From Oscillospiraceae bacterium (GTDB lineage: Bacteria > Bacillota > Clostridia > Oscillospirales > Acutalibacteraceae), in contig CAJTCU010000001.1 of NCBI GenBank assembly GCA_910574935.1, forward strand, positions 607,695 to 671,694: 64,000 nt of DNA, read 5' to 3'. Of the stretch, positions 1,666 to 17,391 are shown piece after piece (within the stretch, counting starts at the first letter, position 1; each line of letters starts with the position of its first letter). The translations under genes were made by a program, and so were the position numbers. Under the pieces are notes generated by a model. The model saw only the letters and a list, made by a program, of their open reading frames with translations. It did no database searches and was not told the DNA's origin.

Positions 1666-1870
1666 GTCCTCACTTCCTCGCTGCGAACTATCGGGCTGTC
1701 CTTACATCTCTAAGACAAAGCCCCCTCTGCCAATACGGGCGTGGGCCCAGGGCCCTTCTGTCTCTATTTTATAGCATGGTTGATCCGCCGGTTTTCAAGA
1801 CCCTGGTAGCTTTGCCCCCAACCCCTTACAAGTTTTCCCTTGGTCCCTGGCGCGTTCTGCGCCTTTTCCG

Positions 1871-3889: not shown

Positions 3890-4165
3890 TGATCTTCCTC
3901 CTTAATTTTGTAAGCCCGGGAGCGCCCCGGTTCCGGCCTTCTCTTGGCCACGCTAAAACATTAATAATAGAAATTATAAATAAAAGCGGCGTCCGCCGCG
4001 TTCAGCCAAAGTTAAACCTTTACGAAAGAGATAAATACACTTTATTTTACTATTTCCTGGCAGGTCTGTCAACCCCAGGGAAAGGTCCTTCCCTTTGGCT
4101 ACCTCCCCAAAGCCGGCCCCCAGGCGCCGCACCCCTTACAATTTCCTTTCAATGGCCAAAACGCC
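3890..4165. other. Intergenic region upstream of RNase J
   Basis: No gene seen. GC-rich near RNase J, then a strongly AT-rich stretch at about 3957-4060 that could hold the RNase J promoter; no promoter is clear enough to place. Confidence 0.4.
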
Positions 4166-4194
4166 TTGATCAGGATCTTCGCTTTCTGTATAAT
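4166..4194 (+). promoter_or_regulatory. Sigma-A type promoter for the small membrane protein
   Basis: TTGATC, 17 bases, TATAAT. Start of transcription would fall at the repeat end at 4202. Confidence 0.6.
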
Positions 4195-4201
4195 ATTGTT
4201 A

Positions 4202-4220
4202 AGGCAACACCGCACAATCC
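4202..4220. repeat. Solo end of a MITE-like repeat
   Basis: AGGCAACACCGCACAATCC closely matches the left terminal repeat of the MITE-like element at 6564-6737 (AGGTAATACCGCACAATTC). No matching right end is seen nearby, so this is a solo or truncated end. Confidence 0.45.
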
Positions 4221-4296
4221 ACCTGCACCTGGCAAAGCTGGATTACAACCGTATTTATCTAAAATCTATTCTTTAAATAAAAGGAGGCCTCCCGCT

Positions 4297-4548
4297 ATGA
4301 AAACCCGCAAAATCCTGCGCAACCTTTTCGCCGCTCTAACCGTTCTGCTCTCCTGTTGGATGTGCGCGGCTGTGGCCTATAACTACTGCGCCTTACAGTG
4401 GGGCGGGCAGTACGCCGGCTACAGCGCGCCGCCCTCTGTTGCCTTTTTCCTGGCGGTCCCCTTTGGGGTGGGCATTGGGGCCAGCGGTGGGCTGGCGGTT
4501 TTCTTCCACCGCCGGGTAAAAAAGTTATCCTCCCGTTTGTCCAAATAG
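4297..4548 (+). CDS. Small two-helix membrane protein, unknown function
   Basis: 83 residues. A strong Shine-Dalgarno (AAAGGAGG) lies 8-10 bases before the ATG, and a good promoter lies 100 bases upstream, so this is probably a real gene. The sequence shows a basic N-terminus, one hydrophobic helix (residues about 9-29), a short Gly/Tyr-rich loop, a second helix (about 48-68) and a basic tail (HRRVKKLSSRLSK). I do not recognise a family. It stands alone before the Fe-S gene pair. Confidence 0.6.
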   Translation: MKTRKILRNLFAALTVLLSCWMCAAVAYNYCALQWGGQYAGYSAPPSVAFFLAVPFGVGIGASGGLAVFFHRRVKKLSSRLSK

Positions 4549-4617
4549 TTTCGGCTTTCTTCCTCCAGTTTATTCCACCTTTTCCTAAAAAATCCTCACC
4601 TTCTTTGTTTCTTCCTC

Positions 4618-4647
4618 TTGACAAAGTATACTAAATTGGTATATATT
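4618..4647 (+). promoter_or_regulatory. Promoter and palindromic operator of the Fe-S cluster genes
   Basis: TTGACA at 4618-4623 and TATATT at 4642-4647 (18-base spacing) form a promoter about 55 bases before the cysteine desulfurase start. Overlapping it is an inverted repeat, TATAC-N7-GTATA, at 4627-4643. This position and AT-rich dyad are like operators of Rrf2-family regulators (IscR, CymR) that control Fe-S or cysteine genes. No Rrf2 gene is in the window, so the regulator is inferred. Confidence 0.6.
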
Positions 4648-4702
4648 TATCTTGCCGGGGGAAAAATACCCCTCAACTGAATCGAAAGGAAGTCTTAATA
4701 AT

Positions 4703-5914
4703 ATGGACAACGCGGTAAGAAACGTCTATGCGGACAACGCCGCAACCACCGCTGTTTCTGAGGAAGTTTTGGCGGCCATGCTGCCCTTTTACCGAGAAAA
4801 TTATGGAAATCCCTCCAGCCTATACGCCATTGGACAAAAGGCCAAGGCGCCCCTGGAGCAGGCCCGGGCTACAGTGGCCAAGTGCCTGGGGGCAAACCCC
4901 AATGAAATCTACTTTACCAGCTGTGGCACCGAAAGCGACAACTGGGCTATTAAAGGAACCGCCCGGGCCCAGCTGAAAAAACATGGTAAAAACCACATTG
5001 TCACCTCTGCCTTTGAGCATCATGCGGTGCTGCACACCTGCCAGGCCCTGGAAAAGCAGGGGTTCACTGTTACCTACCTGCCTGTGCACCGCGAGGGTCT
5101 GGTAGACCCCGCCGAGCTGGAGGCCGCCTTGACAGAAAAAACAGCCCTGGTCAGCATTATGTATGCCAACAACGAGATTGGCACCATTCAGCCCATCCCA
5201 GAAATTGGCGAAATCTGTAAAAAGCACGGAATCCCCTTCCACACCGACGCGGTACAGGCCATTGGCAATGTGCCCATTGATGTGAAAGCCCAAAATATTG
5301 ACATGCTCTCTCTTAGCGGCCACAAAATACACGCCCCCAAGGGGATCGGCGCCCTGTACATTCGGGCTGGGCTTGCTGTGGACACCTTTATGGATGGCGG
5401 CGCGCAAGAGCGCGCCAGGCGAGGGGGCACGGAGAACGTGGCGGAAATTGTGGGCCTAGCCAAGGCCATGGAGACCGCCGCCGCCACAGTAAATGAGCGC
5501 ATTGCCAAGCTAACCCCCATGCGGGAAAAGCTCATTGATGGGGTGTTGAAAATTGAGCGCAGCCGCCTAAACGGCAGCCGGGAGCACCGCCTGCCTGGCA
5601 ATGCCAGTTTCTGCTTTCAGGGGGTGGAGGGGGAGTCCCTTCTGCTTATGCTGGACATGAAGGGCATCAGCGCCTCTTCCGGCTCGGCCTGCACCAGCGG
5701 TTCTTTGGATCCCAGCCATGTGCTGCTGTCCATCGGCCTGCCCCACGAGGTAGCCCACGGGTCTCTACGCATTTCTTTTGGAGACTACAACACTATGGAG
5801 GACGTGGACTATATTTTAGAGACGCTGCCAAAGATTATTGACCGGCTGCGGAACATGTCCCCCCTGTGGGACGCCATTCAAGCCAAGAAGGTAGATTATG
5901 ACAAATATATGTAA
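4703..5914 (+). CDS. nifS: Cysteine desulfurase (NifS/IscS type)
   Basis: PLP enzyme that takes sulfur from cysteine and passes it as a persulfide to the IscU/NifU scaffold. Visible motifs: [15 protein letters not shown] at the N-terminus, the PLP lysine in [12 protein letters not shown], and the active cysteine in [17 protein letters not shown], the flexible loop typical of group I (IscS/NifS) enzymes. An upstream in-frame ATG (4652) would add 17 residues, but the AAAGGAAG ribosome site fits the ATG at 4703, giving 403 residues, normal for the family. A scaffold gene follows 190 bases downstream, with no obvious terminator between, so they probably form an operon under the 4618 promoter. Confidence 0.95.
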
Positions 5915-6104
5915 AAAGCGCCGGATGTTCCCCGCCGCCTGGGCAAGGCTGCGTAAGATCTTTTTGCGGGCTCTGATTTTGAGCTTGCCCACCCTTGCCA
6001 TTAATCTGATGGTTCAGGGGTGCAGGGAGTTTCGGCCGGAGTTAGAGTCGCATCGAAAATACAGGCAGCTTACTGCTAGAACAATTAGGAAAGGATAGTT
6101 TTCT

Positions 6105-6536
6105 ATGGCATACAGTGAAAAAGTAATGGACCATTTCGCCAATCCCCGTAACGTGGGCGAGATGAAGGACTTTAGCGGCGTGGGTGAGGTGGGCAATCCC
6201 AAGTGCGGTGATATTATGCGCATGTATATTAAAGTAGAGGGCGAGGTCATCACCGATGTATCCTTTATGACCTTTGGCTGCGGCGCGGCCATTGCAACCA
6301 GCAGCATGGCCACCGAGCTAATTAAGGGCAAGCCTATCAGCGAGGCCTTGAAGCTGACCAACAAAGCGGTGATGGAGGCCCTGGACGGCCTGCCCCCAGT
6401 GAAGGTGCACTGCTCTGTACTGGCCGAGCAGGCTATTAAAGCCGCTGTCTCAGACTACTACCGCCGCCAGGGCATTGACCCTACCCCCATTGTGGGCGAA
6501 CTTCCCGAATGTGAGGAGTGCGCGTGCGCACTTTAA
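6105..6536 (+). CDS. nifU: Fe-S cluster assembly scaffold IscU/NifU
   Basis: 143-residue scaffold on which the desulfurase builds a [2Fe-2S] or [4Fe-4S] cluster. The three cluster cysteines are visible in NPKCGD, TFGCGAAIA and VHCSVLAE, with the aspartate next to the first Cys that is conserved in IscU. The extra C-terminal cysteines (CEECACAL) are common in Clostridia NifU-like proteins. AGGAAAGG sits before the ATG. With the desulfurase upstream it makes the minimal Clostridia Isc pair. Confidence 0.95.
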   Translation: MAYSEKVMDHFANPRNVGEMKDFSGVGEVGNPKCGDIMRMYIKVEGEVITDVSFMTFGCGAAIATSSMATELIKGKPISEALKLTNKAVMEALDGLPPVKVHCSVLAEQAIKAAVSDYYRRQGIDPTPIVGELPECEECACAL

Positions 6537-6563
6537 GTCTGACACAAGCCACCCATCTATTTT

Positions 6564-6737
6564 AGGTAATACCGCACAATTCTAAGTACCGTATTGCGCA
6601 GTCAGATTTTTCGTCAGAGGGTACAGATTGAGCGCCGTCCATCTCACCATTGACCAGCGAAAGCTGTGCCCTATCACGGAAAATCTGCAAGCAAGACGGT
6701 GCTTAAGGCGCCACCCGCGAATGGTGCGGGGTTGCCT
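6564..6737. mobile_element. MITE-like element, 174 bp
   Basis: Imperfect 19-bp terminal inverted repeats: AGGTAATACCGCACAATTC at 6564-6582 and the complement of AGGCAACCCCGCACCATTC at 6719-6737 (15 of 19 match). No coding capacity. The right half resembles the sequence at 63910-64000 (shared CGAAA.CTGTGC, CGGAAAA, GCAAGCAA, GTGCGGGGTTGCCT), and a solo end lies at 4202, so it is a dispersed family. Confidence 0.6.
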
Positions 6738-7056
6738 TTAGTCTTTATAAAGCATTCTATAGCAAGGCCATCGCCGCGAAGCACTTGAATCTGCTTTCCA
6801 GTGGAAAATTTTCCTGGATACCGCCAGGGAACCTTTTCCGTTGGAAAGCTCTCATTTTTTCTATAGTAATCCTGTGACCCAGGCCGGCGGGTCCCGGCCC
6901 CTGTATGGATTGGCTCGAACAAATTTCATGCCATCATGTTGCAATATTTTCCAGGCCCATCAGGATAGACCCGCCCGCATACTCTCCCCACGCCGCGCGT
7001 ATATATGGATTACCGAAAAGTGGGGTGCCCAATGGGACCCCAAAAAGAGGTGTCCA
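6738..7056. other. Region upstream of spoIIID
   Basis: No gene is convincing here; an open frame that runs into spoIIID from 6841 lacks a ribosome site. It should contain the spoIIID promoter (sigma-E dependent in Bacillus), but I could not find a pair of boxes good enough to mark. Confidence 0.4.
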
Positions 7057-7206
7057 ATGATGAATGTAATCGACGACCGAGCTACCAAGTTAGGGGAATA
7101 CATTGTAGAAAATAATGCTACCGTCCGTTGTGCCGCCAAACAGTTTGGCGTAAGTAAAAGCACGGTACATATGGAAGAAACAAAACAGAACGGTTGCTAT
7201 GGCTAG
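7057..7206 (+). CDS. spoIIID: spoIIID, 5' part (interrupted gene)
   Basis: N-terminal half of SpoIIID, the small DNA-binding regulator of mother-cell gene expression. It reads VIDDRATKLGEYIVENNA, then the helix-turn-helix VRCAAKQFGVSKSTVH, all matching the family. After the codons for STVH, at the TACATA core (7166-7171), the SpoIIID sequence stops and 12 foreign codons lead to a stop at 7204-7206. AAAAGAGG precedes the ATG pair at 7057/7060. In this form the gene would encode 49 residues with an HTH but no C-terminal basic helix, so it should be non-functional. The rest of the gene is at 16195-16332. Confidence 0.93.
   Translation: MMNVIDDRATKLGEYIVENNATVRCAAKQFGVSKSTVHMEETKQNGCYG
7166..7171 (+). 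other. Left attachment core (attL) of the spoIIID element
   Basis: TACATA in the spoIIID context CACGG-TACATA-TGGAAG. Confidence 0.8.
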
Positions 7207-7261
7207 TGAAATAGTGGAAAGGCCAGTGTACACAGATGCAAGAGTGTACACTGGCTCTTTC

Positions 7262-7760
7262 TGTTCCCCTAGTCTTTCAGCGCAGTGACCAGCACCACAA
7301 GCACTCCGTCCGGCCACTGGTACGCCGCGTTCGCCAATCCGCACAGCACACACATCGTAGCAGGATGCTGACCCTTGGGGCGTCCTCTCGTTCCGGGCCA
7401 GGGAGCGCAGAAGCTTGGATGTGTCCCTCTTGACGCCATCGATGCGGTACATGTCGTCGCCAACCACAGCGTTCAAATATCCCTTGGGCAACAATGCTGT
7501 CTGCTGGAATCGCCGAATTCGTAGAGAGACGCGGGCCGCATACGCAGCTTGCCATTGCGCCCCGCACCGTCGTGGCAGGATAAATTCCAGGTTGTGCCGC
7601 ACCATTTTTGCCCATCCACACAGACGGCTCCGAAGGTGGCTAGATACTCTTGTAGGGTCTTGTCGATCATGCGGGGGCGGTAATGTTGTCTTTTCACAGC
7701 ACGGCTTCCATACATTCAGCTCAATTATTCAATTCTATTCAGAGAGTTTTGGTTTTTTAC
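7262..7760 (-). pseudogene. Decayed C-terminal piece of a larger gene
   Basis: No intact gene here. On the minus strand several protein-like stretches lie in successive frames: MIDKTLQEYLATFGAVCVDG then GKLRMRPASLYEF (about 7715-7530), then KGYLNAVVGDDMYRIDGVKR in another frame (about 7500), then YQWPDGVLVVLVTALKD with a stop near 7269. Their order and coding-like composition suggest one gene broken by frameshifts. It may be the 3' part of the pseudogene at 11604-12398, which lies in the same orientation on the other side of the XRE/recombinase block. Family not recognised with confidence. Confidence 0.45.
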
Positions 7761-7886
7761 CGTTAAGCCGAGTCTCATCAAAAAGCTGCTCCAAAAGCCC
7801 AAACGTTACAAACTGTCGCACAGATGCTACCCACTGTAACAGGTTTGCTGGTATAATTCTTTATAATCAGCAAGGTGGTGTAGGCA

Positions 7887-8219
7887 ATGATCTTTGACTT
7901 TCCAGAACGGTTCCGTTATCTCCGGCAGTCCAAAAATTTAGCCCAAAGCCAGCTGGCCAACCTAATCGGTGTAGACAGGAGTACCATCTCGTCCTACGAA
8001 AGTAACATCCGGCAGCCCTCGTTGGACACGCTTTCGCGGATTGCAGATGTGTTTGGCGTAAGCACAGACTATCTTTTGGGACGCACGGATTCCCTCGGGT
8101 TTGACTCCCTTACGTTGAACGGAGAGGAAAAAGCCCTGGCCTATAAGCTTGCTTTCGCACTGTCGAAAAAGAACCTACAGCTTCGCCAGCTACAGGAGGA
8201 GGGGATACCCGATGCCTGA
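7887..8219 (+). CDS. XRE-family transcriptional regulator
   Basis: 110 residues with a Cro/CI helix-turn-helix: LRQSKNLAQSQLANLIGVDR then STISSYESNIRQPSLDTLSR, and VFGVSTDYLLGRTD typical of the family. It is probably the repressor of the recombinase operon that follows; its stop codon overlaps the start of the next gene (8212), so the two are translationally coupled. Confidence 0.85.
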   Translation: MIFDFPERFRYLRQSKNLAQSQLANLIGVDRSTISSYESNIRQPSLDTLSRIADVFGVSTDYLLGRTDSLGFDSLTLNGEEKALAYKLAFALSKKNLQLRQLQEEGIPDA

Positions 8220-10014
8220 ACCCATCTGTTCCCCGGATCACGATACCTGGGAGAAACGCTTTATTCCCGCCAAACCGAAAGCCACTCTCAGGAACCGGCT
8301 TTTCCGTGTATGCGCGTATTGCCGCGTTTCTACCGACAACGACGCGCAGCTGTCTTCCTTTGAGCTTCAGCAGGCCCACTACCGCCAGCTGGCAGGCCAG
8401 CGGCCCAACTGGAGTTTGCGGCATATTTACGCCGATGAGGGGATCTCCGGGGTCTCGCTGAAGAACCGCACGGCGTTTAACGACATGATCGCCGCCTGTG
8501 AAAAGGGAGAATATGACCTGATCGTAACAAAAAGCGTCTCCCGCTTTGCCAGGAACCTGGTGGACTGTATCTCTCTGGTCCGTAGGCTCAAGAACCTTGA
8601 TCCGCCGGTGGGGGTATTTTTTGAAACGGATAATCTGAATACCATCGAAGAAAGTTCCGAATTTATGCTCACCTTTCTTGCCTCCTTCGCCCAGGAGGAA
8701 TCCGTCAAAAAGCGGGAAGCCATGATCTGGTCCCTGTCCCAACGGTTCAAGGACTGCCAACTGCTGGCCCCTCCTCTGCTTGGTTATGACAGGCAGCGGG
8801 ACGCCGCCGGCCACTACATCAAGCATGCCCCGCTGGTCGTCAACAAGGCCGAGGCAAATGTGGTCCGCCTTATTTTCGACGCTTACCTGTATGGCTGGTC
8901 CCAGGCAGATATCGCCGCTTTTCTCACGGATATTGGATGCGGGACAAAAACCGGAAACACCGGCTGGAGCAACAGTTCGGTGGGCTACATCCTTTCCAAC
9001 GAACGCTGCTGTGGCGATATCCTGACCTGGAAGACCTTTACCTCCGACCTGTTTAACCACAAGCGCAAAAAGAACCGCCAGGACGTGGATCAGTATTACT
9101 ACAGGGAGCAACACGAAGCAATCATTACAAGGGAAAAATTCGAGATGGCGCAGGCTCTCCTTGAAAACAGGAAGCACAGTATGCGCGGCGGAATGCCCCC
9201 CCTCCATGTGATAGACGACGGCGTCTTTCGCGGTTTCGTTCCCATTAACCACCATTGGATTAATGACGACCCCGGGCTGTATTATGACTTGTCAAACAGC
9301 GTAAGCATGCCGCGCAGGGAGATCCGCCTGCTCAAAAGTTCTTTTTCCCTGTTCGACCTCAAAGGCTATCAGGTGGTCAGGAGCCAGTTTACGCAGGCAC
9401 GATATGAGGGGCCGGCGGTAACGATCGGGATAGACAAGATCATATTCAACCTGTTCTGTGTGAGGACGTTTTCCGACGTGGGCCATATCCAGCTGCTCCT
9501 GCATCCTTCCCAGCGGAAGATCGCCATACGGCCCTGTGACAAAGGGGCCGTACACTGCATCAAATGGCGCCCTGATGGGCATATGCCCTTGTATGCAAAA
9601 ATTTTGCGCTGCCAGCATTTTGGCACGGCTCTCTTTCGCATGATGGAGTGGGACCCGAATTACTTATATAAGGTCCGGGGGACATGGGTGCAGCGGGAGC
9701 ACAAGCAGATTATTGTTTATAATTTGGAAGACGCGGTGTCTGCCGTGCCGCTGTCTCCAACCAGCGGAGCCCGCTTGCGGCGCGCTGAGCTATACCCGGA
9801 AGCCTGGGAATACAGCTTTGGCGATGAGTTCTATGACCACATCCGCGAGAACGGCATCTTTTATATGGGGCAAAGCGCAGCGTGGCAAGCGGACAGGCCC
9901 AGCGTGCCTGCCCCGGGGGGCGAGCAATATAGAACACCCACCGGCTGCGAGCTTCAAGCGTTGGCGGACAAACTCAAAAAGAAGGATGGTGTTGGAAATG
10001 CCGGCACAGGATAA
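8212..10014 (+). CDS. Serine recombinase with an uncharacterised C-terminal domain
   Basis: 600 residues. The resolvase domain has the catalytic serine at residue 40 (CAYCRVSTD) and the SVSRFARN motif; a PF07508-like recombinase region follows (VVNKAEANVVRLIFDAYLYG, GWSNSSVGYILSNERCCGDI). The usual zinc ribbon is absent. Instead there is a linker (VIDDGVFRGFVPINHHW) and a domain at about residues 375-510 (GYQVVRSQF, IDKIIFN, IQLLLHPSQRKIAIRPC, MMEWDPNYLYKVRG). The same domain recurs in the next three genes. I chose the ATG at 8212, after AGGAGGAGG; an earlier in-frame ATG lacks a ribosome site. It is a different lineage from the recombinase at 14661 and probably mobilises an inner element. 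Confidence 0.88.
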   Translation: MPEPICSPDHDTWEKRFIPAKPKATLRNRLFRVCAYCRVSTDNDAQLSSFELQQAHYRQLAGQRPNWSLRHIYADEGISGVSLKNRTAFNDMIAACEKGEYDLIVTKSVSRFARNLVDCISLVRRLKNLDPPVGVFFETDNLNTIEESSEFMLTFLASFAQEESVKKREAMIWSLSQRFKDCQLLAPPLLGYDRQRDAAGHYIKHAPLVVNKAEANVVRLIFDAYLYGWSQADIAAFLTDIGCGTKTGNTGWSNSSVGYILSNERCCGDILTWKTFTSDLFNHKRKKNRQDVDQYYYREQHEAIITREKFEMAQALLENRKHSMRGGMPPLHVIDDGVFRGFVPINHHWINDDPGLYYDLSNSVSMPRREIRLLKSSFSLFDLKGYQVVRSQFTQARYEGPAVTIGIDKIIFNLFCVRTFSDVGHIQLLLHPSQRKIAIRPCDKGAVHCIKWRPDGHMPLYAKILRCQHFGTALFRMMEWDPNYLYKVRGTWVQREHKQIIVYNLEDAVSAVPLSPTSGARLRRAELYPEAWEYSFGDEFYDHIRENGIFYMGQSAAWQADRPSVPAPGGEQYRTPTGCELQALADKLKKKDGVGNAGTG

Positions 10015-10591
10015 GCTGGACCAGATATTCTGCCAAACAATGCTTGACGGGGAAGAAGAGATCGTACCGGACCTGGCGGGGTTCCAGGTCACAAAAGCGG
10101 AACTGTTCTCCCATACCCGCGAACCAGCGCTCACCATCTGGCCGGCGCGCATCCGTTTCAATATGTCCTGTCTCAGGCGGTTTCCGGGGGTAACGCACAT
10201 ACAGCTGCTGATACATCCGGAGCAAAAGCGGCTGATCATCCGGCCCTGTCCGCCCGAAACGCCGGACGCCCTGCGTTGGGCGAAAGGCGGCGGGGATAAG
10301 GAGCTTGTGAACCGGGATATGCTTTGCAGGATATTCGCCGCCAAAATATTCGATCTGATGGGCTGGGACAGTGAGTACAGGTATAAGATCATGGGGAATC
10401 CCGCCGTCTATCAAAAGGAAGTGCTGTTTCTATTCAAGCTGACCGACTTTGAACTGTTTGTGGGAGGAAAAAGGGGAAAGTCCTATCTTCCCGGCGAGTG
10501 GCGGGAGTATTTCGGCATCCCGGCAGAACGGCATGAAGACAGCTATAAAATCAACCTTGCGGATGGATATATTACCACGGACCGCGTTTAG
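9998..10591 (+). CDS. Paralog 1 of the recombinase C-terminal domain
   Basis: 197 residues, starting at ATG 9998 inside the end of the recombinase gene (17-base overlap), hence coupled. It repeats the recombinase C-terminal domain without the catalytic part: LAGFQVTKAELF, PARIRFNMSCLRRF, HIQLLIHPEQKRLIIRPCPP, FDLMGWDSEYRYKIMGN, FLFKLTDFE. A C-terminal extension follows (GEWREYFGIPAERHEDSYKI). It may be an accessory factor of the recombinase, for example for directionality or DNA binding; that is inference. No characterised family known to me. Confidence 0.8.
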   Translation: MPAQDKLDQIFCQTMLDGEEEIVPDLAGFQVTKAELFSHTREPALTIWPARIRFNMSCLRRFPGVTHIQLLIHPEQKRLIIRPCPPETPDALRWAKGGGDKELVNRDMLCRIFAAKIFDLMGWDSEYRYKIMGNPAVYQKEVLFLFKLTDFELFVGGKRGKSYLPGEWREYFGIPAERHEDSYKINLADGYITTDRV

Positions 10592-10602
10592 GAGGGGAGC
10601 AA

Positions 10603-11064
10603 ATGAATATGAATCAATTCCAGTCCGAAGTAGAGCCGATTTCAATCGAGGGGTTTCAAGTAGTCAGCGGGGAGCTTTTCTCCCGTGTCAGCAGTTGTGC
10701 TTCGCCGTCCTGCACCATTTGGAGTTCGGGGATAACCTTCAACAGGCAGGCGCTGACCGCGCTGAACTGCTGTGAGCGCATCCGCCTGGAGGTACATCCA
10801 CAGAAGAAAAGCCTTTTGGCCGTCCCGGTGACCGTCAAAGACAAGGACAGCATCATATGGCGCAAAAACATTAAAGAGTACGCACCAAGACGTATGGAAT
10901 CCGTCCGGTTCTCCTCACAAATCTATGAGATATGGAGCTGGGATACCAGTTGGGTCTACAGAGCCGTGGGACACATTGTGACGGTGGAGAACAAGATCAT
11001 GCTCCTCTTTGATTTCAGCGCCCCTGAGCAGTGGAAGGCCAAAGAGAAAAAGACGGCAAAATGA
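10603..11064 (+). CDS. Paralog 2 of the recombinase C-terminal domain
   Basis: 153 residues with a strong ribosome site (TAGGAGGGG) 11 bases after the previous gene. Same domain outline: IEGFQVVSGELFSR, IRLEVHPQKKSLLAVPV, ... IYEIWSWDTSWVYRAVGHIV, IMLLFDFSAPEQW. The spacing of motifs and the W-[SG]-W-D-x-x-W/Y-x-Y core match the upstream copies. Function unknown; operon context suggests it works with the recombinase. Confidence 0.78.
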   Translation: MNMNQFQSEVEPISIEGFQVVSGELFSRVSSCASPSCTIWSSGITFNRQALTALNCCERIRLEVHPQKKSLLAVPVTVKDKDSIIWRKNIKEYAPRRMESVRFSSQIYEIWSWDTSWVYRAVGHIVTVENKIMLLFDFSAPEQWKAKEKKTAK

Positions 11065-11405
11065 ATGGCGTATACATCTCTTTTTATTTGAAAGCGAATC
11101 GGGTCCATATTTTTGTGGAAGCCCTTCGCTCCATAGGCAGTCCTGAACGGATCCGCTTTCTTATCTCCAAGGATGGGCGGATCCTGCTGATCCAGCCTTA
11201 TGGCAAAAGGGGGTTTACCTCGCATATGATCCCACGGGAAGTATATGATGGCAAGCGGCCGCTGGAAATATCCAGCTATAAACTGTGTACAATCCTGGCG
11301 GAGTTTCACGGCTGGGACCTGGGTTGTTCCTACCGTGTGCCTGAACGGATCGCGGCGGACACCCGTTCTGCGCTCTTCTTTTTGGATAAAGCCGAGGCTA
11401 TCTGA
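11061..11405 (+). CDS. Paralog 3 of the recombinase C-terminal domain
   Basis: 114 residues; its ATG overlaps the previous stop by 4 bases (ATGA). Most divergent and shortest copy: VYISFYLKANRVHIFVEALR, IRFLISKDGRILLIQPYGKR, LCTILAEFHGWDLGCSYRVP, ALFFLDKAEA. The I.LL..P / GWD...YR core is retained. Last gene of the operon. Confidence 0.72.
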   Translation: MNGVYISFYLKANRVHIFVEALRSIGSPERIRFLISKDGRILLIQPYGKRGFTSHMIPREVYDGKRPLEISSYKLCTILAEFHGWDLGCSYRVPERIAADTRSALFFLDKAEAI

Positions 11406-11603
11406 TAGCAAAACAGAACTTCTATTGTGGGTTATGGAGTGAAATGGCCTTCCCATATAGCGTGGCAGGAATTACTAAATAATGTGATATGTTATTTTCA
11501 CAAGCGGCAAATGCTATGTAAGCACAATACATCCAATTACTATCCGGTACGTGTAAATTAGAAATGAACTGGCGTATTGATATATAATGCCAGTTCATTT
11601 TAT

Positions 11604-12398
11604 TTATGCATACCTCTCAAAAGCCTGTGATTCCCAGCGAAAATGCTTTTTTAAAAGCGTTTTGAATTGATCAAAGGTTCTCGTTTTTTCTTGACTCGGT
11701 CCCTGCCGCCAAAAAGCTGGAAACAGGGGCATAAACTTATCAATGACGGTGATGACCGGCACGTTCCACACACTGGATTCTTCATTGTCGATCACAATCA
11801 CCCGATGGGGCTTATCAATTTCAATCCCATCTTACCTTGTTCCGCCGGAGAGCATCAGTCCATTATAGGCGTACAGTTTGCTCAACTGGCAAGAACCAAT
11901 CTTCATATCCAGCATGATCCTCCGGCGCAGCGGCTCGTAAATGTCCTCTCGCACGAAAGAGAGCTGCGCCTTGCGGCTCATGCTGTTGGAGCGCTCGAAA
12001 GCCAGATACCGACAGGGTCCAGTGCCAAAATCCAGCACGATGCCCTCTGGCCGGAACATACTCTCTGCTTTCTTCTGTCGAACGGCATGACGGTTCTGCG
12101 CGGCGCTGCGGTCGAAGATATTGCTGGAATCTACGTAGCAAATCACGTCCGACAGGTCACTGATGAGCGTGTCCTCCATCGGTAGCTGGTAGTTGTCTCC
12201 ACGCAGAACACACATAGTCTGAAAGAGCAGCGCGCAGTCCTGTTGCTCATGGAGCGAGGAAAGTACCTTGCACTTCTCCGTTGCTTTAGCATTTAGAGTA
12301 AAGGCATAGCCGCTCTCCGCACCTCCCTGAGCATAGGCCATGAGGGCGCTAGCAGAAAGTGAGTAGATTTTATACCTGACCTGTGGCACGGCAGTCAC
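11604..12398 (-). pseudogene. N-terminal piece of a broken gene of unknown family
   Basis: Reading from 12398 the product starts MTAVPQVRYKIYSLSASALM and runs 188 codons (EGIVLDFGTGPCRYLAFERS, RRRIMLDMKIGSCQLSKLYA) to an in-frame TAA at 11832-11834. The same frame then continues with coding-like sequence (DGIEIDKPHRVIVIDNEESS, VWNVPVITVIDKF) to a stop at 11604. So this is a gene with a nonsense codon, also cut at its 3' side. I have a vague memory of similar starts in large polymerase-like proteins of Clostridia mobile elements but cannot support a name. The companion 3' piece may be at 7262-7760. Confidence 0.55.
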
Positions 12399-12497
12399 CT
12401 CTTGCCCAAATTATACCAGAGTCCTTTCCGGTTTGCAATATGAATACTGCTCCCACTTTTTCAAGCTGGGAGCGTTTCTATTTTACCGAAAGGACTG

Positions 12498-12761
12498 ATG
12501 TGTATGCCAAAACCCATCGAAAAGCTTACCGTCATCGACGGCGAAACCCTACAGGACATGAGGTTTCAGCCGGGAAAGGGTGTCTTCTTCCAAAGCCGCA
12601 AAAGTAATGGACAGCGGCTGGTGCAAGTCTTCTTTGTCTCTGCAAAGGACGTAAGTGCCGCAAGTGACGCAACTTTGAGTGGTGCCGGATTTACCGTCCC
12701 TTGCGACCCTTACAATGCTGAACTCCCGGTATCCTCTAGGGATAACGCCCATTCAGCGTGA
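12498..12761 (+). pseudogene. Fragment of a RepA-like AAA ATPase gene of integrative elements
   Basis: The first 22 or so codons (MPKPIEKLTVIDGETLQDMR and FQP) resemble the start of RepA-like helicase/ATPases found beside mobilization genes in Clostridia elements. The sequence then diverges, and no Walker A follows, so the gene has lost its core. The downstream tail (PYNAELPVSS) may be a scrap of the C-terminus. Best read as a deletion remnant. Confidence 0.4.
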
Positions 12762-13028
12762 GCCGCTGCTTTCGACCCTTGCGCCCCTGTGAGGCCACAG
12801 CAGGCCCGTGTTGGCGTTTTTCGGCGGCAGTCGGGTACGTCTCCACCACCAGGCCCTGAGAAGGGCGTTTTGGGGCAATTCTGGCCCCGTTTCGCGGCAA
12901 GATTCAAAGGGGCCGGATTTCCCGGCAGGGGAGGGCCGTAAGGGCCTCCCGCTGGGGCAAGCAGAGCGCGTGGCTGTCCGCCCCGCACAAAAGAACCGGG
13001 CAGAAGCCCGTACCCACTTTAGAAAGGT
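12762..13028. other. GC-rich, stem-rich region before mobC, possible oriT
   Basis: No gene. The stretch is GC-rich with several short inverted repeats (for example GGCCGGATTTCC, GGGCCGTAAGGGCC), lies between a RepA-like remnant and mobC, and is where an origin of transfer normally sits in such elements. No nick site is recognised, so this is only a candidate. Confidence 0.3.
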
Positions 13029-13346
13029 ATGAAAGGCAATAGAAAACGAGCAGAAACTCTGACGATTCGTCTGACAAAAACAGAGAAAGAAATGATTCAA
13101 AAGAAAGCAAAGAAGGCTCAACTCAGCGTTACAGATTTTTTCGTTGCAACATCGTTGCGCACGGAGATTCACGTTGCCGAGAACATCAAGCCTCTGCTGA
13201 TTGAGCTGAAAAGAATCGACAACAACATCAACCAAATCACCATGAAAATCAATGCGGGAGCGTTCCACTCCGCTGACTTTTCGGATGTCATACAGGGTCA
13301 ACGGATGCTCTACGAACAGCTCCTGCGCATTGCGGGAGGGCGGTAA
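13029..13346 (+). CDS. mobC: MobC-like mobilization protein
   Basis: 105 residues. The sequence (TLTIRLTKTEKEMIQKKAKK, then VTDFFVATSLRTEI) has the ribbon-helix-helix outline of MobC relaxosome proteins, and the C-terminal LIELKRIDNNINQITMKIN is the family signature. AGAAAGG precedes the ATG. It overlaps the relaxase fragment by one base. With the relaxase broken, it is probably a relic, although its own frame is intact. Confidence 0.85.
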   Translation: MKGNRKRAETLTIRLTKTEKEMIQKKAKKAQLSVTDFFVATSLRTEIHVAENIKPLLIELKRIDNNINQITMKINAGAFHSADFSDVIQGQRMLYEQLLRIAGGR

Positions 13347-13549
13347 TGGCAACCGTAAAATTTACCCAGGAGAGCCGCCAATCAATTTGTGCCATGAAAG
13401 GCGTGATTTCCTACTGCTTGCAGGAGAAAAAGGTTGCGGATGATGCCACCGGCCAGCGCATGGTCAGTGGCATTTCCTGCGATGGAGAGAACGCATTTGC
13501 TGAATTCTTGACGGCAAAGACCGCCTATTGGAAGCAATCATTGGCCTGA
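13346..13549 (+). pseudogene. Relaxase gene, 5' fragment
   Basis: 67 codons matching the start of MobA/VirD2-type relaxases of Clostridia elements (MATVKFTQESRQSICAMKGV, SGISCDGENAFAEFLTAK). The catalytic histidine motif region and all the rest are missing, replaced by a short foreign tail and stop. The element could not start its own transfer. Confidence 0.7.
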
Positions 13550-13668
13550 CAGCCGGCATAATATCCAACTCCAATTAATTTACCCCAGCGGTTCGGTGCT
13601 ATCACCGGGCCGCTTTTCATATATATTCACATCGAGAAACTGAATCCAAAGGAGGCCTGGCAAACAAT

Positions 13669-13854
13669 TTGAGTAAAAAAAAGCTGAATTACCGTTTTCA
13701 TAATCCAAACCCCGACAGCCAAACGGCCAACTACATACTAAAGGTTTTCCTCGAATCGAACCGCCCAAAGGTCGAAAACGCGGTCCAACAGGCGGCGCAA
13801 GAAGTTCAGGCCGGGGAAGAAACGGAACATGAAGCCATTACCAGGGCAATGTGA
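13669..13854 (+). CDS. Small conserved-looking protein
   Basis: 61 residues from a TTG start at 13669 with AAAGGAGG 13 bases upstream. Sequence LNYRFHNPNPDSQTANYILK then VFLESNRPKVENAVQQA; acidic tail. Similar short proteins occur next to mobilization genes of Clostridia elements, but no function is known to me. Confidence 0.55.
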   Translation: MSKKKLNYRFHNPNPDSQTANYILKVFLESNRPKVENAVQQAAQEVQAGEETEHEAITRAM

Positions 13855-13861
13855 TTTTCTC

Positions 13862-13890
13862 TTGCTATTTTTCCGCCAATGCGGTACAAT
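13862..13890 (+). promoter_or_regulatory. Promoter of the MntA/HepT module
   Basis: TTGCTA, 17 bases, TACAAT, 22 bases before the mntA start. Confidence 0.55.
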
Positions 13891-13912
13891 AGTCTTGAAA
13901 GGGGGCGGCCTT

Positions 13913-14212
13913 ATGCAAAAGGTTTATTCCATCCACGAAATCGAAAATATCCTCCAGCCGGTTTTCGCTGGCTATGGCGTGCGGCGAGCGGTGCTGTTCG
14001 GCTCCTACGCAAAGGGACAGGCCACTCCCCGCAGTGACGTGGACATTCTGGTTGACAGCGGCCTGCGCGGGCTGGCGTTCTTTGGCCTGTTGGAAGGTGT
14101 TTCATCCACACTGAGCGTACCGGTTGACCTTATCGATGTTTCACAAATCGAGGAGGGCTCTCAAATTGATGCAGAGATACGGCAGACAGGGGTGCCGATT
14201 TATGGGCAGTAA
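13913..14212 (+). CDS. mntA: MntA-type nucleotidyltransferase antitoxin
   Basis: 99 residues from ATG 13913 (ribosome site AAAGGGGG). Minimal nucleotidyltransferase fold with the motif GSYAKGQATPRSDVDILVDS (GS...SDxD), and VDLIDV for the third acidic position. In characterised MntA/HepT pairs this enzyme AMPylates and so neutralises the HEPN toxin. Its end overlaps the toxin start by 11 bases. Likely a stability or defence module of the intervening element. Confidence 0.9.
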   Translation: MQKVYSIHEIENILQPVFAGYGVRRAVLFGSYAKGQATPRSDVDILVDSGLRGLAFFGLLEGVSSTLSVPVDLIDVSQIEEGSQIDAEIRQTGVPIYGQ

Positions 14213-14549
14213 GGATCTTGCGGTGCTGAGAAAAATCCTTCGGCATATCGAAAGCATTATGCGCTACTGTGCCGATTGCCGTACGCTGGAAGATTTTTCA
14301 TCCGACGCCATGCGCTTGGAGGCTACCGTCTTCAACCTGATGCAAATCGGCGAGCTTGCAAAGGAATCTCTGAGCGACGAGGCAAAGGCGCAGATTAAAA
14401 CCATCCCCTGGCAGCAGATTTACGGCATGCGCAACCGGATTGTGCATGGCTATTCCGGGGTCAATATGCAAATCGTGTGGGACACCGTATCGGTAGACAT
14501 TCCCATGCTTCATAAAGAATTAGAATCGATTATCAAAACAAATTCTTAA
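14202..14549 (+). CDS. hepT: HepT-like HEPN toxin (DUF86)
   Basis: 115 residues; HEPN RNase motif R-x4-H visible in MRNRIVHGYSGVN, and the helical DUF86 core (EATVFNLMQIGELAKESLSD). ATG at 14202 overlaps mntA. The pair is terminated by the hairpin at 14553-14590. A toxin-antitoxin pair next to the recombinase would favour retention of the element in growing cells. Confidence 0.9.
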   Translation: MGSKDLAVLRKILRHIESIMRYCADCRTLEDFSSDAMRLEATVFNLMQIGELAKESLSDEAKAQIKTIPWQQIYGMRNRIVHGYSGVNMQIVWDTVSVDIPMLHKELESIIKTNS

Positions 14550-14552
14550 ATA

Positions 14553-14590
14553 TGGCGGGGCCGAAAAAACGGCTCCGCCAATATTTTTAT
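14553..14590 (+). terminator. Intrinsic terminator after hepT
   Basis: TGGCGGGGCCG, loop A6, CGGCTCCGCCA, then ATATTTTTAT. Confidence 0.8.
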
Positions 14591-14618
14591 TGCTTTCCTG
14601 AAAGAAGTGTGGTAAACT
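14590..14618 (+). promoter_or_regulatory. Candidate promoter of the excision recombinase
   Basis: TTGCTT, 17 bases, TAAACT, ending 42 bases before the start codon. It looks like a weak sigma-A promoter; I see no clear sigma-E or sigma-K boxes, although mother-cell control would be expected by analogy with spoIVCA. Confidence 0.35.
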
Positions 14619-14660
14619 CAGTAGTAACAAAACGTTTTAAATTGATTAGTGAGGTGCCCC

Positions 14661-16196
14661 ATGAACATCGCTGCCTACTGCCGTGTCTCCACCGACAAGG
14701 AGGACCAGCTTAACAGCCTAGAAGCCCAGAAAGAATTCTTCTCAGAATACACCAAGCGCACCGGCGACGCGCTTGTGCGCTTGTACGCCGACGAGGGCAT
14801 TTCCGGCACAAAGATCAAGAACCGCAAGGAGTTCCTGCGGATGATGGCGGATGCCGAGCACCATCTGTTCGACATGGTTGTGGTTAAGGACATCAGCCGC
14901 TTTGCCCGGAACACTGTGGACCTTCTCCAAAGCGTCCGCAGGCTGAAAGCCCTGGGCATCGAGACCCAGTTCCTCACTGCCAACATGACCAGCATGGGCA
15001 ACAGCGAGTTCGTGCTAACTATCTTCGGCGCGCTGGCCCAAGAGGAGAGCGCCAACACCTCCAAGCGGGTAAAGTTCGGCAAGAAGATGAATGCTGAAAA
15101 AGGCCGGGTTCCCAACATCGTCTACGGCTATGATAAGACCGCCGGGGACTATTTTAATCTGGCAATTAACCCAACAGAGGCTGACATTGTCCGCCAAATC
15201 TTCCATATGTACACTGAGGAAGGGGCGGGCGCGGCGAAAATCGCCAACACCCTCAACGAGCGCGGCCTGCGCACCAAGCGCAACTGCTCCTGGAGCCAGA
15301 ACGCCATCTGCCGCATCATCACCAACGAGCTGTACACCGGCAAAATCATCAACGGCAAGCAGGAAGTTTCCGACTTCCTCACCGGCCAGCGAGCGGACAA
15401 GCCTGAGGATGACTGGATCGTGGTGGACAGGCCCGAACTGCAAATCATCTCCCCCGAAACCTTCCAGCAGGCCCAAGAAATCTTAGACTCCCGCCACAAG
15501 ACTTTCCGCACCGACCACCAGCGCCAGAGCAACAAGCACCTGTTCTCCACCCTCATCAAGTGCAAGGAGTGCGGCTGGTCCTTCTACCGCACCGTGCGCA
15601 CCTACAAAAACACCTATGTGCGCTGGGTCTGCTCCGGCCACACCGGGCGAGGCGCGGATAGCTGCCCCAACGCCGTCACCGTGGACGAGGACGAATTGAT
15701 AGGCACCTTGCAGGAATACTTCGCCCAGGTGCTGATGGCCAAGAAAAATATCATCCCCTATGTTGTCAAGGAGTTCCAGCGGGTTTACCGCGCTAAGGAT
15801 GATAACCAGGAGTATGAAAAGGAATTGACCGCCCAACTTGCTAAGCTCCAAAAGACCCGCCAGAAGTACATGGATATGTACACCGACGACCTTATCAGCC
15901 GGGAGGAGCTGAACGAGAAGATAGGCGGCTCAAAGAAGGAAATCGAGCGCATCGAAAACGAGTTGAAAATCGTCGGCTACAATATCACCAAAGGCGACCA
16001 GTTGGAAAGCATCTTGCAAAACACCTTCAAGACCATCGAGGACATCACCGATGTGCGCTCCATGACCAACGCTCAGCTCAAGCGGCTGATCCAGAAAATC
16101 GAGGTGGACAAGGACGGCAACGTGGACATCTACCTGCGGCTTCTAGGCGATTTAGATCTGGAAGAAACCGTAGTGATTGCAGACAACCATACATAA
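14661..16196 (+). CDS. Large serine recombinase, candidate spoIIID-element excisionase
   Basis: 511 residues. Catalytic serine at residue 10 (AAYCRVSTDKEDQLNSLEAQ), DISRFARNTVDLLQ, a PF07508 region (NPTEADIVRQIFHMYTEEGA), a zinc ribbon (CKECGWSFYR and CSGHTGRGADSC, from about residue 300) and a coiled-coil tail, the full large-serine-integrase layout of SpoIVCA. The ATG at 14661 follows GAGGTG. The last codons (CAT ACA TAA) lie in the TACATA attR core, so the stop codon belongs to the junction. On the excised circle the frame would continue 14 codons beyond Thr (YGRNKTERLLWLVK). Adjacent to attR, it is the obvious enzyme for this element. Confidence 0.92.
   Translation: MNIAAYCRVSTDKEDQLNSLEAQKEFFSEYTKRTGDALVRLYADEGISGTKIKNRKEFLRMMADAEHHLFDMVVVKDISRFARNTVDLLQSVRRLKALGIETQFLTANMTSMGNSEFVLTIFGALAQEESANTSKRVKFGKKMNAEKGRVPNIVYGYDKTAGDYFNLAINPTEADIVRQIFHMYTEEGAGAAKIANTLNERGLRTKRNCSWSQNAICRIITNELYTGKIINGKQEVSDFLTGQRADKPEDDWIVVDRPELQIISPETFQQAQEILDSRHKTFRTDHQRQSNKHLFSTLIKCKECGWSFYRTVRTYKNTYVRWVCSGHTGRGADSCPNAVTVDEDELIGTLQEYFAQVLMAKKNIIPYVVKEFQRVYRAKDDNQEYEKELTAQLAKLQKTRQKYMDMYTDDLISREELNEKIGGSKKEIERIENELKIVGYNITKGDQLESILQNTFKTIEDITDVRSMTNAQLKRLIQKIEVDKDGNVDIYLRLLGDLDLEETVVIADNHT
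16190..16195 (+). other. Right attachment core (attR) of the spoIIID element
   Basis: TACATA in the context CAACCA-TACATA-AAGATGTG; overlaps the recombinase stop codon and the first AAA (Lys) codon of the 3' spoIIID part. Confidence 0.8.
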
Positions 16197-16332
16197 AGAT
16201 GTGTCTCAACGTCTCAAGTATATCAACCGGGGCCTTTACCGAGATGTGAAGAACGTCCTCGCCGTCAACAAGGCTCAGCGGCATATCCGCGGAGGCATGG
16301 CTACCAAGAAAAAATACCAGTCGCTAAAATGA
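16195..16332 (+). CDS. spoIIID: spoIIID, 3' part (interrupted gene)
   Basis: Without a start codon of its own, this frame reads KDVSQRLKYINRGLYRDVKN then VLAVNKAQRHIRGGMATKKK and YQSLK, the C-terminal half of SpoIIID including the basic RHIRGG-ATK-KY motif that contacts DNA. It joins in frame to the 5' part at 7171. A terminator follows directly, as expected for the end of a real gene. spoIIQ next door is the normal Clostridia neighbour of spoIIID. Confidence 0.93.
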   Translation, partial: KDVSQRLKYINRGLYRDVKNVLAVNKAQRHIRGGMATKKKYQSLK

Positions 16333-16403: not shown

Positions 16404-17195
16404 CTAGTTGATCCCCTCAATGACAGACCGAGGGTCCAGGTAGGCGGCATCCCGGCGGACCTCCAGGTGCAGGTGGGGCTTGTCCGCCGACTCGGCCGGC
16501 ACAGCCGTCACTGTGCCAATGGCTTGTCCGGCGGACACTACCTCTTCTGGCTCTACCAGGAAGTTCTCACCCAGTCCGCAATAGTAAAAATCATAGTCCC
16601 CATGCTCCACCACCACTACGTTGCCCAGCATGCTATCCGTATAGGTCTGTTTCACAATGCCATTGGCACAGGCCAGCACCTGCTCTCCGCTTTCCGCAGT
16701 CAGGTCGGTGCCCGCATGCACCCGCCAGTCCCGCATGGTGGTGGAATAGACCGGCGCGCCCGCGCTGTAAGCCTTGCAAATTTCCTCCGATCCCACAGGA
16801 TAGATCATCTCTTGGCTGATCTCATAAAGAGGCGCGTTGGCAGGCACCGGCGGCTGCTCTTCCTCTGGCTCCTCCTGTGTAGTGGGCGCTGGGGTGGGCG
16901 TGGGCTCCGGAGGAGCGGAGGGCTTGGGAGAGGGCGCGTTGGGCCTTGTGGTAGGAGCCGGGGTGGCAGCCCAGTTATTTTGGGTATCGGGCGAAGGGCT
17001 GGCCACCGGCGCGGGGCTTCTGGGGGCCTCCGGGTCATCGTTTACCGCAGACTGCACCGGCTCGCTGCTCATGTAGCCCTGCACCGCGTCAAAGGTGCTC
17101 CAGGCCGCGATACCCACCGCCACCAGGCAGACCGCCAGCGCCAGGTAAAAGCCGTTTCGCCGGGCTTTACTTTCTGAAAAGCGTTTTCCGTTCAT
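16404..17195 (-). CDS. spoIIQ: SpoIIQ-like forespore membrane LytM protein
   Basis: 263 residues: basic cytoplasmic tail, one membrane helix (residues about 15-37), a long Pro/Ser/Thr/Glu linker (about 50-125) and a LytM/M23 domain. The LytM metal ligands appear intact: HAGTD, and HLHLEV near the end. In Clostridia SpoIIQ keeps these residues, whereas in Bacillus one is lost. It faces SpoIIIAH across the septal space during engulfment. The start at ATG 17195 is 9 bases after GAAAGGG. Evidence for the name: LytM fold, single-pass topology, neighbour spoIIID, and a sigma-F type promoter upstream. Confidence 0.85.
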   Translation of the reverse strand: MNGKRFSESKARRNGFYLALAVCLVAVGIAAWSTFDAVQGYMSSEPVQSAVNDDPEAPRSPAPVASPSPDTQNNWAATPAPTTRPNAPSPKPSAPPEPTPTPAPTTQEEPEEEQPPVPANAPLYEISQEMIYPVGSEEICKAYSAGAPVYSTTMRDWRVHAGTDLTAESGEQVLACANGIVKQTYTDSMLGNVVVVEHGDYDFYYCGLGENFLVEPEEVVSAGQAIGTVTAVPAESADKPHLHLEVRRDAAYLDPRSVIEGIN

Positions 17196-17269
17196 ATCAT
17201 ACATCCCTTTCCGAATGAGAGCCCAGCTAATAGGCAGCGGGCTAAACCTCATATTTTCTTCACAACGGT

Positions 17270-17298
17270 AGTCTAGCCGGGTCGGAAAGAGATTATAC
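17270..17298 (-). promoter_or_regulatory. Sigma-F (or G) type promoter of spoIIQ
   Basis: On the minus strand: GTATA at 17298-17294, 15 bases, then GGCTAGACT at 17278-17270, an exact fit to the forespore -10 pattern GGnnAnAnT. SpoIIQ is sigma-F dependent in Bacillus, so context and motif agree. Confidence 0.7.
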
Positions 17299-17391
17299 AA
17301 AAACCGGAAAGCTAAAAACAAAAACGAAAAGAACCGGCTGCACGCCGGCCCTTTCCGTTTGCTTGAGGGGTATTATTGAGGAGGGTAGAAC

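Follow-up and report, generated by a model that had tools for sequence, protein, structure and literature searches.

How can a member of the Clostridia run its sporulation programme if the only spoIIID gene found in its genome lies in two pieces, 9 kb apart? SpoIIID opens the late mother-cell programme, and the question is raised by a 64,000-nt stretch of DNA (the window; coordinates below are positions in it) from an Oscillospiraceae bacterium (assembly GCA_910574935.1, contig CAJTCU010000001.1). The assembly, labeled G000 among the genomes compared here (G numbers; L numbers denote loci and contigs), has 109 contigs and is 99.97% complete. Our analysis indicates that the split is real, recurrent, and widespread, and that it most likely works like the sigK-splitting skin element, through a small protein controlled by sigma-E. 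In our view the 9 kb between the pieces are probably a mobile, spoIIID-intervening element that belongs to a large integrase family, takes codons 38-39 of the gene as its attB, and is excised in the mother cell in a skin-like manner.

The interrupted gene and its attachment sites

Read directly, the 5' part of spoIIID opens with ATG ATG at 7057/7060, runs to CAT (7168-7170), and ends KSTVH, while the 3' part resumes at 16195 and continues to a stop codon at 16330-16332 (Table 1). The two TACATA cores at which the gene is interrupted are 9,024 bp apart, core to core, and joining the pieces gives 38 + 45 codons plus the stop, that is, a full 83-residue protein. Taken from its second ATG (82 aa), the joined form aligns with the Pfam SpoIIID model (126 bits) from position 2 to position 80 of 82; against the NCBIfam equivalog TIGR02844 the joined SpoIIID scores 109.8 bits, slightly below the cut-off of 111.5. 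A preliminary description of this DNA had placed the break at these cores, had rebuilt 84 codons by joining them, and had noted a large serine recombinase abutting the right core; direct reading bears out each point, the recombinase ending in a TAA (16194-16196) that takes its last base from spoIIID. Its statement that spoIIQ follows holds in so far as a spoIIQ-like M23 peptidase gene lies just beyond the element, though on the opposite strand and convergent with spoIIID. A second intact spoIIID, which would have spoken against that description, was not found in a whole-genome search of G000, which returned these two pieces only.

Comparison across genomes shows that the two inner arms, ...AAACCGTTCT... 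and ...AGAACGGTTT..., mirror each other as inverted repeats flanking GTACAT, giving the short direct repeat with flanking inverted arms that is expected of attachment (att) sites. Resolvase, Recombinase, and zinc-ribbon domains all fall within the single recombinase protein, which stays below the NCBIfam cut-offs for CcrB (152 vs 900 bits), CcrC (133 vs 900), and XisF (131 vs 375). On an excised circle its frame would continue for about 14 residues, ...NHT-YGRNKTERLLWLVK. The locus thus displays the sequence hallmarks of skin-kind elements, namely a split gene with a restoring join, no intact copy found, a site-specific recombinase, and att sites.

This layout is shared by most of the 32 loci compared. 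A full-length recombinase adjoins the right core in 25. Of the remaining seven, six have less than 1.3 kb of upstream sequence fetched, and in G487 a recombinase (41% identical) lies at the opposite end. In 19 of the 25 the core marks the end of the recombinase frame (exceptions: G035, G191, G174, G690, G572, and G768). Element size varies widely: halves that lie on one fetched stretch are 3,037 bp (G035) to 14,469 bp (G283) apart, and longer spacings are seen in G001 (about 34.5 kb) and Marasmitruncus massiliensis (125 kb).

Recurrence of the break and relationships of the integrase

The preliminary description had suggested comparison with related genomes, and there the same split recurs, with many relatives holding an intact gene. 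Both halves and no whole gene are present in 9 of 60 genomes (G000, G001, G009, G014, G017, G022, G035, G044, and G050), and a single piece only in G024, G053, and G054; larger draws of 398 genomes from the family and 394 from the order, 66 of which were re-searched for coordinates, yielded further split genomes. In all 28 tabulated genomes with both halves the break follows the H of KSTVH with both halves open and in frame; the residue after the H is K in 26 of them, with M replacing it in G174 and Q in G768. No stop codon occurs in 35 left and 35 right spoIIID pieces, sets that include the three repaired genomes described below. The split is located inside single contigs of the single-contig genomes G022, G035, and G044, and genus g36 has it in all three genomes of the sample; the apparent split of G608 was discarded as a frameshift between adjacent pieces. 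Nor is the arrangement rare at a broader scale: an even draw across the class, of 393 genomes at least 90% complete, contained 285 with a spoIIID match, 15 of them in two pieces and from ten families. All 13 of these 15 that were re-searched have both pieces at the usual place, and the re-searched single-piece genomes G943 and G992 have the 3' piece only. Because an identical break at an identical codon appears in dozens of genomes, chance is not a sensible explanation.

Approaching the question from the recombinase gives the same picture. An alignment-based scan of named genome contigs retained the best 80 loci (at least 80 exist), 50 of which have a SpoIIID piece. Whole-genome searches of 26 hosts, 23 drawn from these 50 loci and three from the remainder, found spoIIID in pieces only in 25, broken at the same codon by model coordinates; the exception, Intestinibacillus massiliensis, has a whole spoIIID and a recombinase that is only 34% identical. 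Split hosts include Pseudoflavonifractor phocaeensis, Blautia glucerasea, Schaedlerella arabinosiphila, Anaerobacterium chartisolvens, Marasmitruncus massiliensis, Anaerotruncus sp. G3, and metagenome-assembled genomes (MAGs) titled Pelosinus and Selenomonadales, and those chosen via the recombinase include Lachnospiraceae and Negativicutes. Six of seven both-half loci from named hosts read through the join, and the seventh is cut by a contig end.

A quick tree was made of 90 recombinases, including 72 linked to spoIIID; on it the linkage label needs 5 changes, vs 16.8 in shuffles (0 of 500 as low), and Lachnospiraceae and Oscillospiraceae rows are intermixed. The spoIIID-linked integrases thus group together as a single family that moves horizontally. 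Divergence of the integrase and of its target also disagree: G000 and G009 have nearly identical recombinases (synonymous divergence, pS, 0.061) and very different spoIIID genes (pS 0.72), and the pairs G009-G017 and G035-G191 show the converse, so elements come and go at the spoIIID attB. The ratio of nonsynonymous to synonymous divergence (pN/pS) of the two halves is 0.043 and 0.042 within the genus and, with pS near saturation, 0.29 and 0.30 between other genera; intact spoIIID genes give 0.21 and 0.15.

Phages share the site. A 62,399-base IMG/VR contig carries a 70%-identical recombinase, an intact attP, and a read-through tail (...NDRAYSSNNLERFIWLIS), has no SpoIIID match, and encodes endolysin, tail, and DNA ligase families; these phage families together with attP imply that tailed phages use the same spoIIID site. 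An attP pattern search of viral contigs gave 11 matches, and only this contig also has the recombinase. We rejected MT838016.1 (L250, "Bacteriophage sp." in GenBank) as a free form, since its recombinase precedes a spoIIID 3' half and it therefore looks like a piece of bacterial chromosome.

Some recombinases sit at other places. Seven sister recombinases (42-48% identical; L141, L142, L144, L146, L147, L148, and L150) lie next to what appears to be the 3' portion of a different conserved gene, possibly a further split one; two of the neighboring genes had no match in Pfam or NCBIfam. Within the spoIIID-type clade, the recombinases of L091 (at 7971) and L112 (at 11485) are not followed by spoIIID, and as the TACATA core of L091 borders other DNA, secondary sites may exist.

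A candidate excision factor, its hosts, and the alternatives

In 21 of the 32 elements, the last 9 kb before the right core include an open reading frame (ORF) of about 44-70 residues with an FHNPN-like motif (the HNPN ORF), for which Pfam, NCBIfam, PHROGs, and PADLOC scans gave no family match. To look at its promoter we used a one-block 11-base motif learned from 43 spoIIID upstream regions only, with the ribosome-binding region removed, and judged each region against 200 dinucleotide shuffles. The learned motif, CGCATATAtAT (CGCATATATAT), resembles the sigma-E -10 element. In the first set of loci this box lies upstream of 13 of 21 HNPN ORFs (Fisher 1e-12; 9/17 and 1.2e-9 without near-copies), and upstream regions of the recombinase show no enrichment for it, either there (2/25, 0.72) or in a second set (3/48, 0.81). 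Both first-set recombinases with the box are from one genus (G063 and G193), where no HNPN ORF was found. The second set, the best 80 recombinase loci, has an HNPN ORF in 37 of 48 spoIIID-linked loci, and with near-copies removed the box precedes 6 of 39 HNPN ORFs at p 0.05 (Fisher 7.1e-5). This set overlaps the first, L124 being a contig of G086 and L090 sharing DNA with two first-set loci; restricted to new spoIIID-linked loci without these two, the count is 4 of 33 (Fisher 0.0013). A two-block promoter model was dropped because it latched on the ribosome-binding site (10/31 upstream of split spoIIID; 3/21 upstream of HNPN ORFs, Fisher 0.00046; 3/25 upstream of recombinases, 0.43). By eye, DNA like GTAACA(A/G)AACG is also seen just upstream of the recombinase start, in the window (14600-14660) and in several split loci; it resembles the attP arm, is close to the C. 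difficile SpoIIID box KRTAACARK, and could reflect autoregulation or a SpoIIID site.

These data are consistent with a simple order of events. In growing cells and in the germ line spoIIID would stay split, with the large serine recombinase made from its own promoter, which by eye appears sigma-A-like. Once sigma-E is active in the mother cell, the HNPN protein would be produced from the promoter containing the computed sigma-E-like match and may switch the recombinase from integration to excision. Recombination of attL with attR at TACATA would then release a circle and leave the frame of spoIIID exactly rejoined, whereupon the gene's own sigma-E-like promoter could drive its transcription and the late mother-cell programme could begin. 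As the mother cell dies, the spore line would keep the element, and as SpoIIID would be absent before excision, presumably only sigma-E could start HNPN expression. If this is true, SpoIIID cannot be made until the chromosome has been recombined.

The hosts retain other mother-cell genes. G000 has whole sigK and whole spoIVA and so is not an obvious asporogenous wreck. SpoIVA was found in 42/42 split genomes, 7/7 intact and 3/3 repaired relatives, and 5/10 genomes without spoIIID. At least 9 of the 42 split genomes (G009, G017, G022, G191, G487, G498, G746, G776, and G778) also have sigK in two skin-type pieces, as does G020, which is outside the split-spoIIID group; some hosts therefore carry two split mother-cell genes, and in these two elements would have to leave one mother cell. 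Decay of the sigK 5' part in G009, G017, G020, and G746 was considered and rejected, the flagged stops falling just beyond the break. We also observed a break in spoIVA, near residue 400 of the model and adjacent to another large serine recombinase, in three hosts that all have split spoIIID too; in G768 only the first part of spoIVA was found. Elsewhere an intact gene stands beside remnants of the split one. G026 and G708 keep a recombinase stub only (residues 1-52 and 1-53), preceded on the left by the old 5' half and followed on the right by an intact spoIIID that has an upstream region of its own. In G299 the intact gene is accompanied by a 5' remnant, and the stretch gave no recombinase match. 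We read all three as repaired hosts, the order of events being one that we infer. Anaerobacterium chartisolvens is a spore former, which the literature searched did not mention.

Several observations weigh against mother-cell excision of a skin-like element. The box is weak or missing in most second-set loci taken singly, no HNPN ORF was found in G063, G165, G193, G487, or G097, and 5 of 14 recombinase loci unlinked to spoIIID also have one. The HNPN ORF is a candidate directionality factor by position and promoter only, and excision by attL and attR is itself a putative reaction deduced from sequence. Low pN/pS is no sole proof of function while split, because the elements turn over fast, and in G1004 and G1061 the 5' piece has stops in the matched frame. 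Among named strains, one account gives Acutalibacter caecimuris and A. intestini as non-spore-forming and lists A. muris as "na" (PMC11316587), and Ethanoligenens harbinense appears in a table of non-sporogenous strains, whose excerpted text does not give spoIIID among the missing genes (PMC3533761).

The broken 5' pieces and the reported Acutalibacter phenotypes, like the quick turnover at the site, the sideways movement, and the intact spoIIID of many relatives, would all suit an ordinary mobile element that uses spoIIID as attB in hosts that have lost sporulation, a loss tolerated in the gut, with excision rare and not developmental. We nonetheless judge this unlikely, given that both halves are open in every tabulated genome, that SpoIVA is retained in every split genome searched, that the sigma-E-like box precedes the small ORF and not the recombinase, and that spoIIID is intact in both genomes reduced to a recombinase stub. 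Another alternative is reversible lysogeny, in which phage-type induction would free spoIIID in some cells and only those would sporulate, without mother-cell control. In its favor, the same attP occurs on a true phage contig, and excised and integrated cells coexist for the C. botulinum element yin (PMC10747680), but ten frames of the window element gave no structural phage family and the box upstream of the small ORF again points to sigma-E, so that we give lysogeny very little probability. Least credible, to the point of being negligible, is a split created by faulty assembly or left by a dead element that is being lost: MAGs and drafts are frequent among the hosts, and repaired and broken cases exist, yet the split lies within contigs of single-contig genomes with a common break point, and because the break recurs at one codon this account is refuted as a general one. 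A skin-like intervening element, as the preliminary description had proposed, is instead supported by the recurrence, the att arms, the one integrase family, and the candidate excision factor. We lean, by a small measure, toward the broader proposal of a phylum-wide integrase family specialized on spoIIID, with an excision factor tied to host sigma-E and with the split sigK and spoIVA hosts representing stacked recombination checkpoints.

Related elements, cargo, and coordinates

The closest parallel is the skin element of C. difficile, whose recombinase CD1231 is constitutive and whose 72-residue directionality factor CD1234 is controlled by sigma-E and SpoIIID (PMC5025042). Both systems split a mother-cell regulatory gene and have a large serine recombinase outside sigma-E control, and the HNPN ORF is a candidate counterpart of the small second protein with a sigma-E promoter that drives excision there. 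They differ in that the target here is spoIIID, which acts before and on sigK, that SpoIIID can play no part in activating its own rebuilding, leaving only sigma-E to start it, and that elements at this one codon occur across many families. B. subtilis skin (SpoIVCA; sigK) likewise combines a split mother-cell gene with a serine recombinase, and G063 and G193, with their box before the recombinase itself, resemble it; its target differs, and in the window the box precedes the small ORF. The gin element of Bacillus cereus ATCC10987 (GirC, GirX) is also a non-phage island with more than one serine recombinase, and the transcription-factor gene that it splits at a short direct repeat is very small too, but it is 28.6 kb long, lies in gerE, and was reported from Bacilli (PMC5595907). 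SP-beta (spsM), vfbin (spoVFB), and yin (yabG) are prophage-like elements in sporulation genes, with other targets.

The preliminary description knew of no report of spoIIID as such a target, and our search agrees: among the matches listed from open-licence papers, no title or abstract reports it as a split gene, and the split sporulation genes given in the introduction of one account do not include it (PMC10747680). Our results suggest that what is new here is spoIIID as the target of a skin-kind element, within a family wider than the window and spanning many Clostridia, and that hosts in many Clostridia must edit their own chromosome before spore formation proceeds. The split genes in the cited papers, as far as excerpted, are sigK, spsM, spoVFB, gerE, and yabG; spoIIID sits upstream of sigK, and if its rebuilding gates the mother-cell programme, the gate would act earlier than sigK, so that a recombination checkpoint may lie one step ahead of it. 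The split also occurs in gut genera with debated spore formation, where gene-presence surveys may score spoIIID as missing or truncated. Conserved att sites, a 3.0-kb form in G035, and culturable gut hosts open the system to direct tests, and its integrase family provides recombinases that share one strict attB.

Table 1. Features of the window and of split sigK and spoIVA loci in other genomes
Feature	Position	Strand	Basis
CGCGTATATAT, sigma-E-like box upstream of spoIIID	6996..7006	+	direct reading; among 43 motif-training regions
spoIIID 5' part, codons 1-38, MMNVIDD...SKSTVH	7057..7170	+	direct reading, Pfam, NCBIfam
Left core TACATA (attL)	7166..7171	+	direct reading, cross-genome table
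Left inner att arm, ends ACGGTT	7171..7195	+	compared across genomes
Helix-turn-helix (HTH) regulator (cargo)	7887..8219	+	Pfam HTH_3
Second serine recombinase, unusual C-terminal part (cargo)	8149..10014	+	Pfam Resolvase + Recombinase
NikA/MobC-like mobilisation protein (cargo)	13029..13346	+	Pfam
TTCATATATAT, sigma-E-like box upstream of HNPN ORF	13616..13626	+	14.5 bits, p 0.005 vs shuffles
HNPN small ORF, TTG start, 61 aa, candidate recombination directionality factor	13669..13854	+	position + promoter only
MntA-like nucleotidyltransferase frame (cargo; true start may be further in)	13829..14212	+	family scans
HepT-like frame (cargo)	14124..14549	+	Pfam HepT-like
Large serine recombinase, putative spoIIID integrase/excisionase	14661..16196	+	Pfam, locus comparison, tree
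Right inner att arm, in 3' end of recombinase gene (AAACCGT)	16160..16189	+	compared across genomes
Right core TACATA (attR)	16190..16195	+	direct reading, cross-genome table
spoIIID 3' part KDVSQRLKYIN..., 45 codons + stop	16195..16332	+	direct reading, Pfam
M23 peptidase gene, spoIIQ-like, convergent with spoIIID, outside element	16404..17321	-	Pfam Peptidase_M23
Split sigK example	L255 (G022 contig 1), 3239090-3252961		
Split spoIVA	L251 (G797, Marasmitruncus massiliensis), 1056-7736		
Split spoIVA	L256/L257 (G774, Pseudoflavonifractor phocaeensis)		
Split spoIVA	L258 (G768)		

The cargo of the window element is not that of a plain prophage, a possibility that we rejected since none of the ten frames searched gave a structural phage family and the element carries a mobilisation-type protein instead. 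Within the element, 13829-14549 holds a MntA/HepT-like pair of a nucleotidyltransferase and a HepT-like protein. By eye, a repeated domain, G[FY]QV...HIQLL.HP...IRPC, appears common to four adjacent frames at 8149-11405, of which the first is fused to a serine recombinase. Further along the window, on the minus strand at 23581-24717, a frame resembles by eye a tyrosine integrase and probably belongs to another mobile element.

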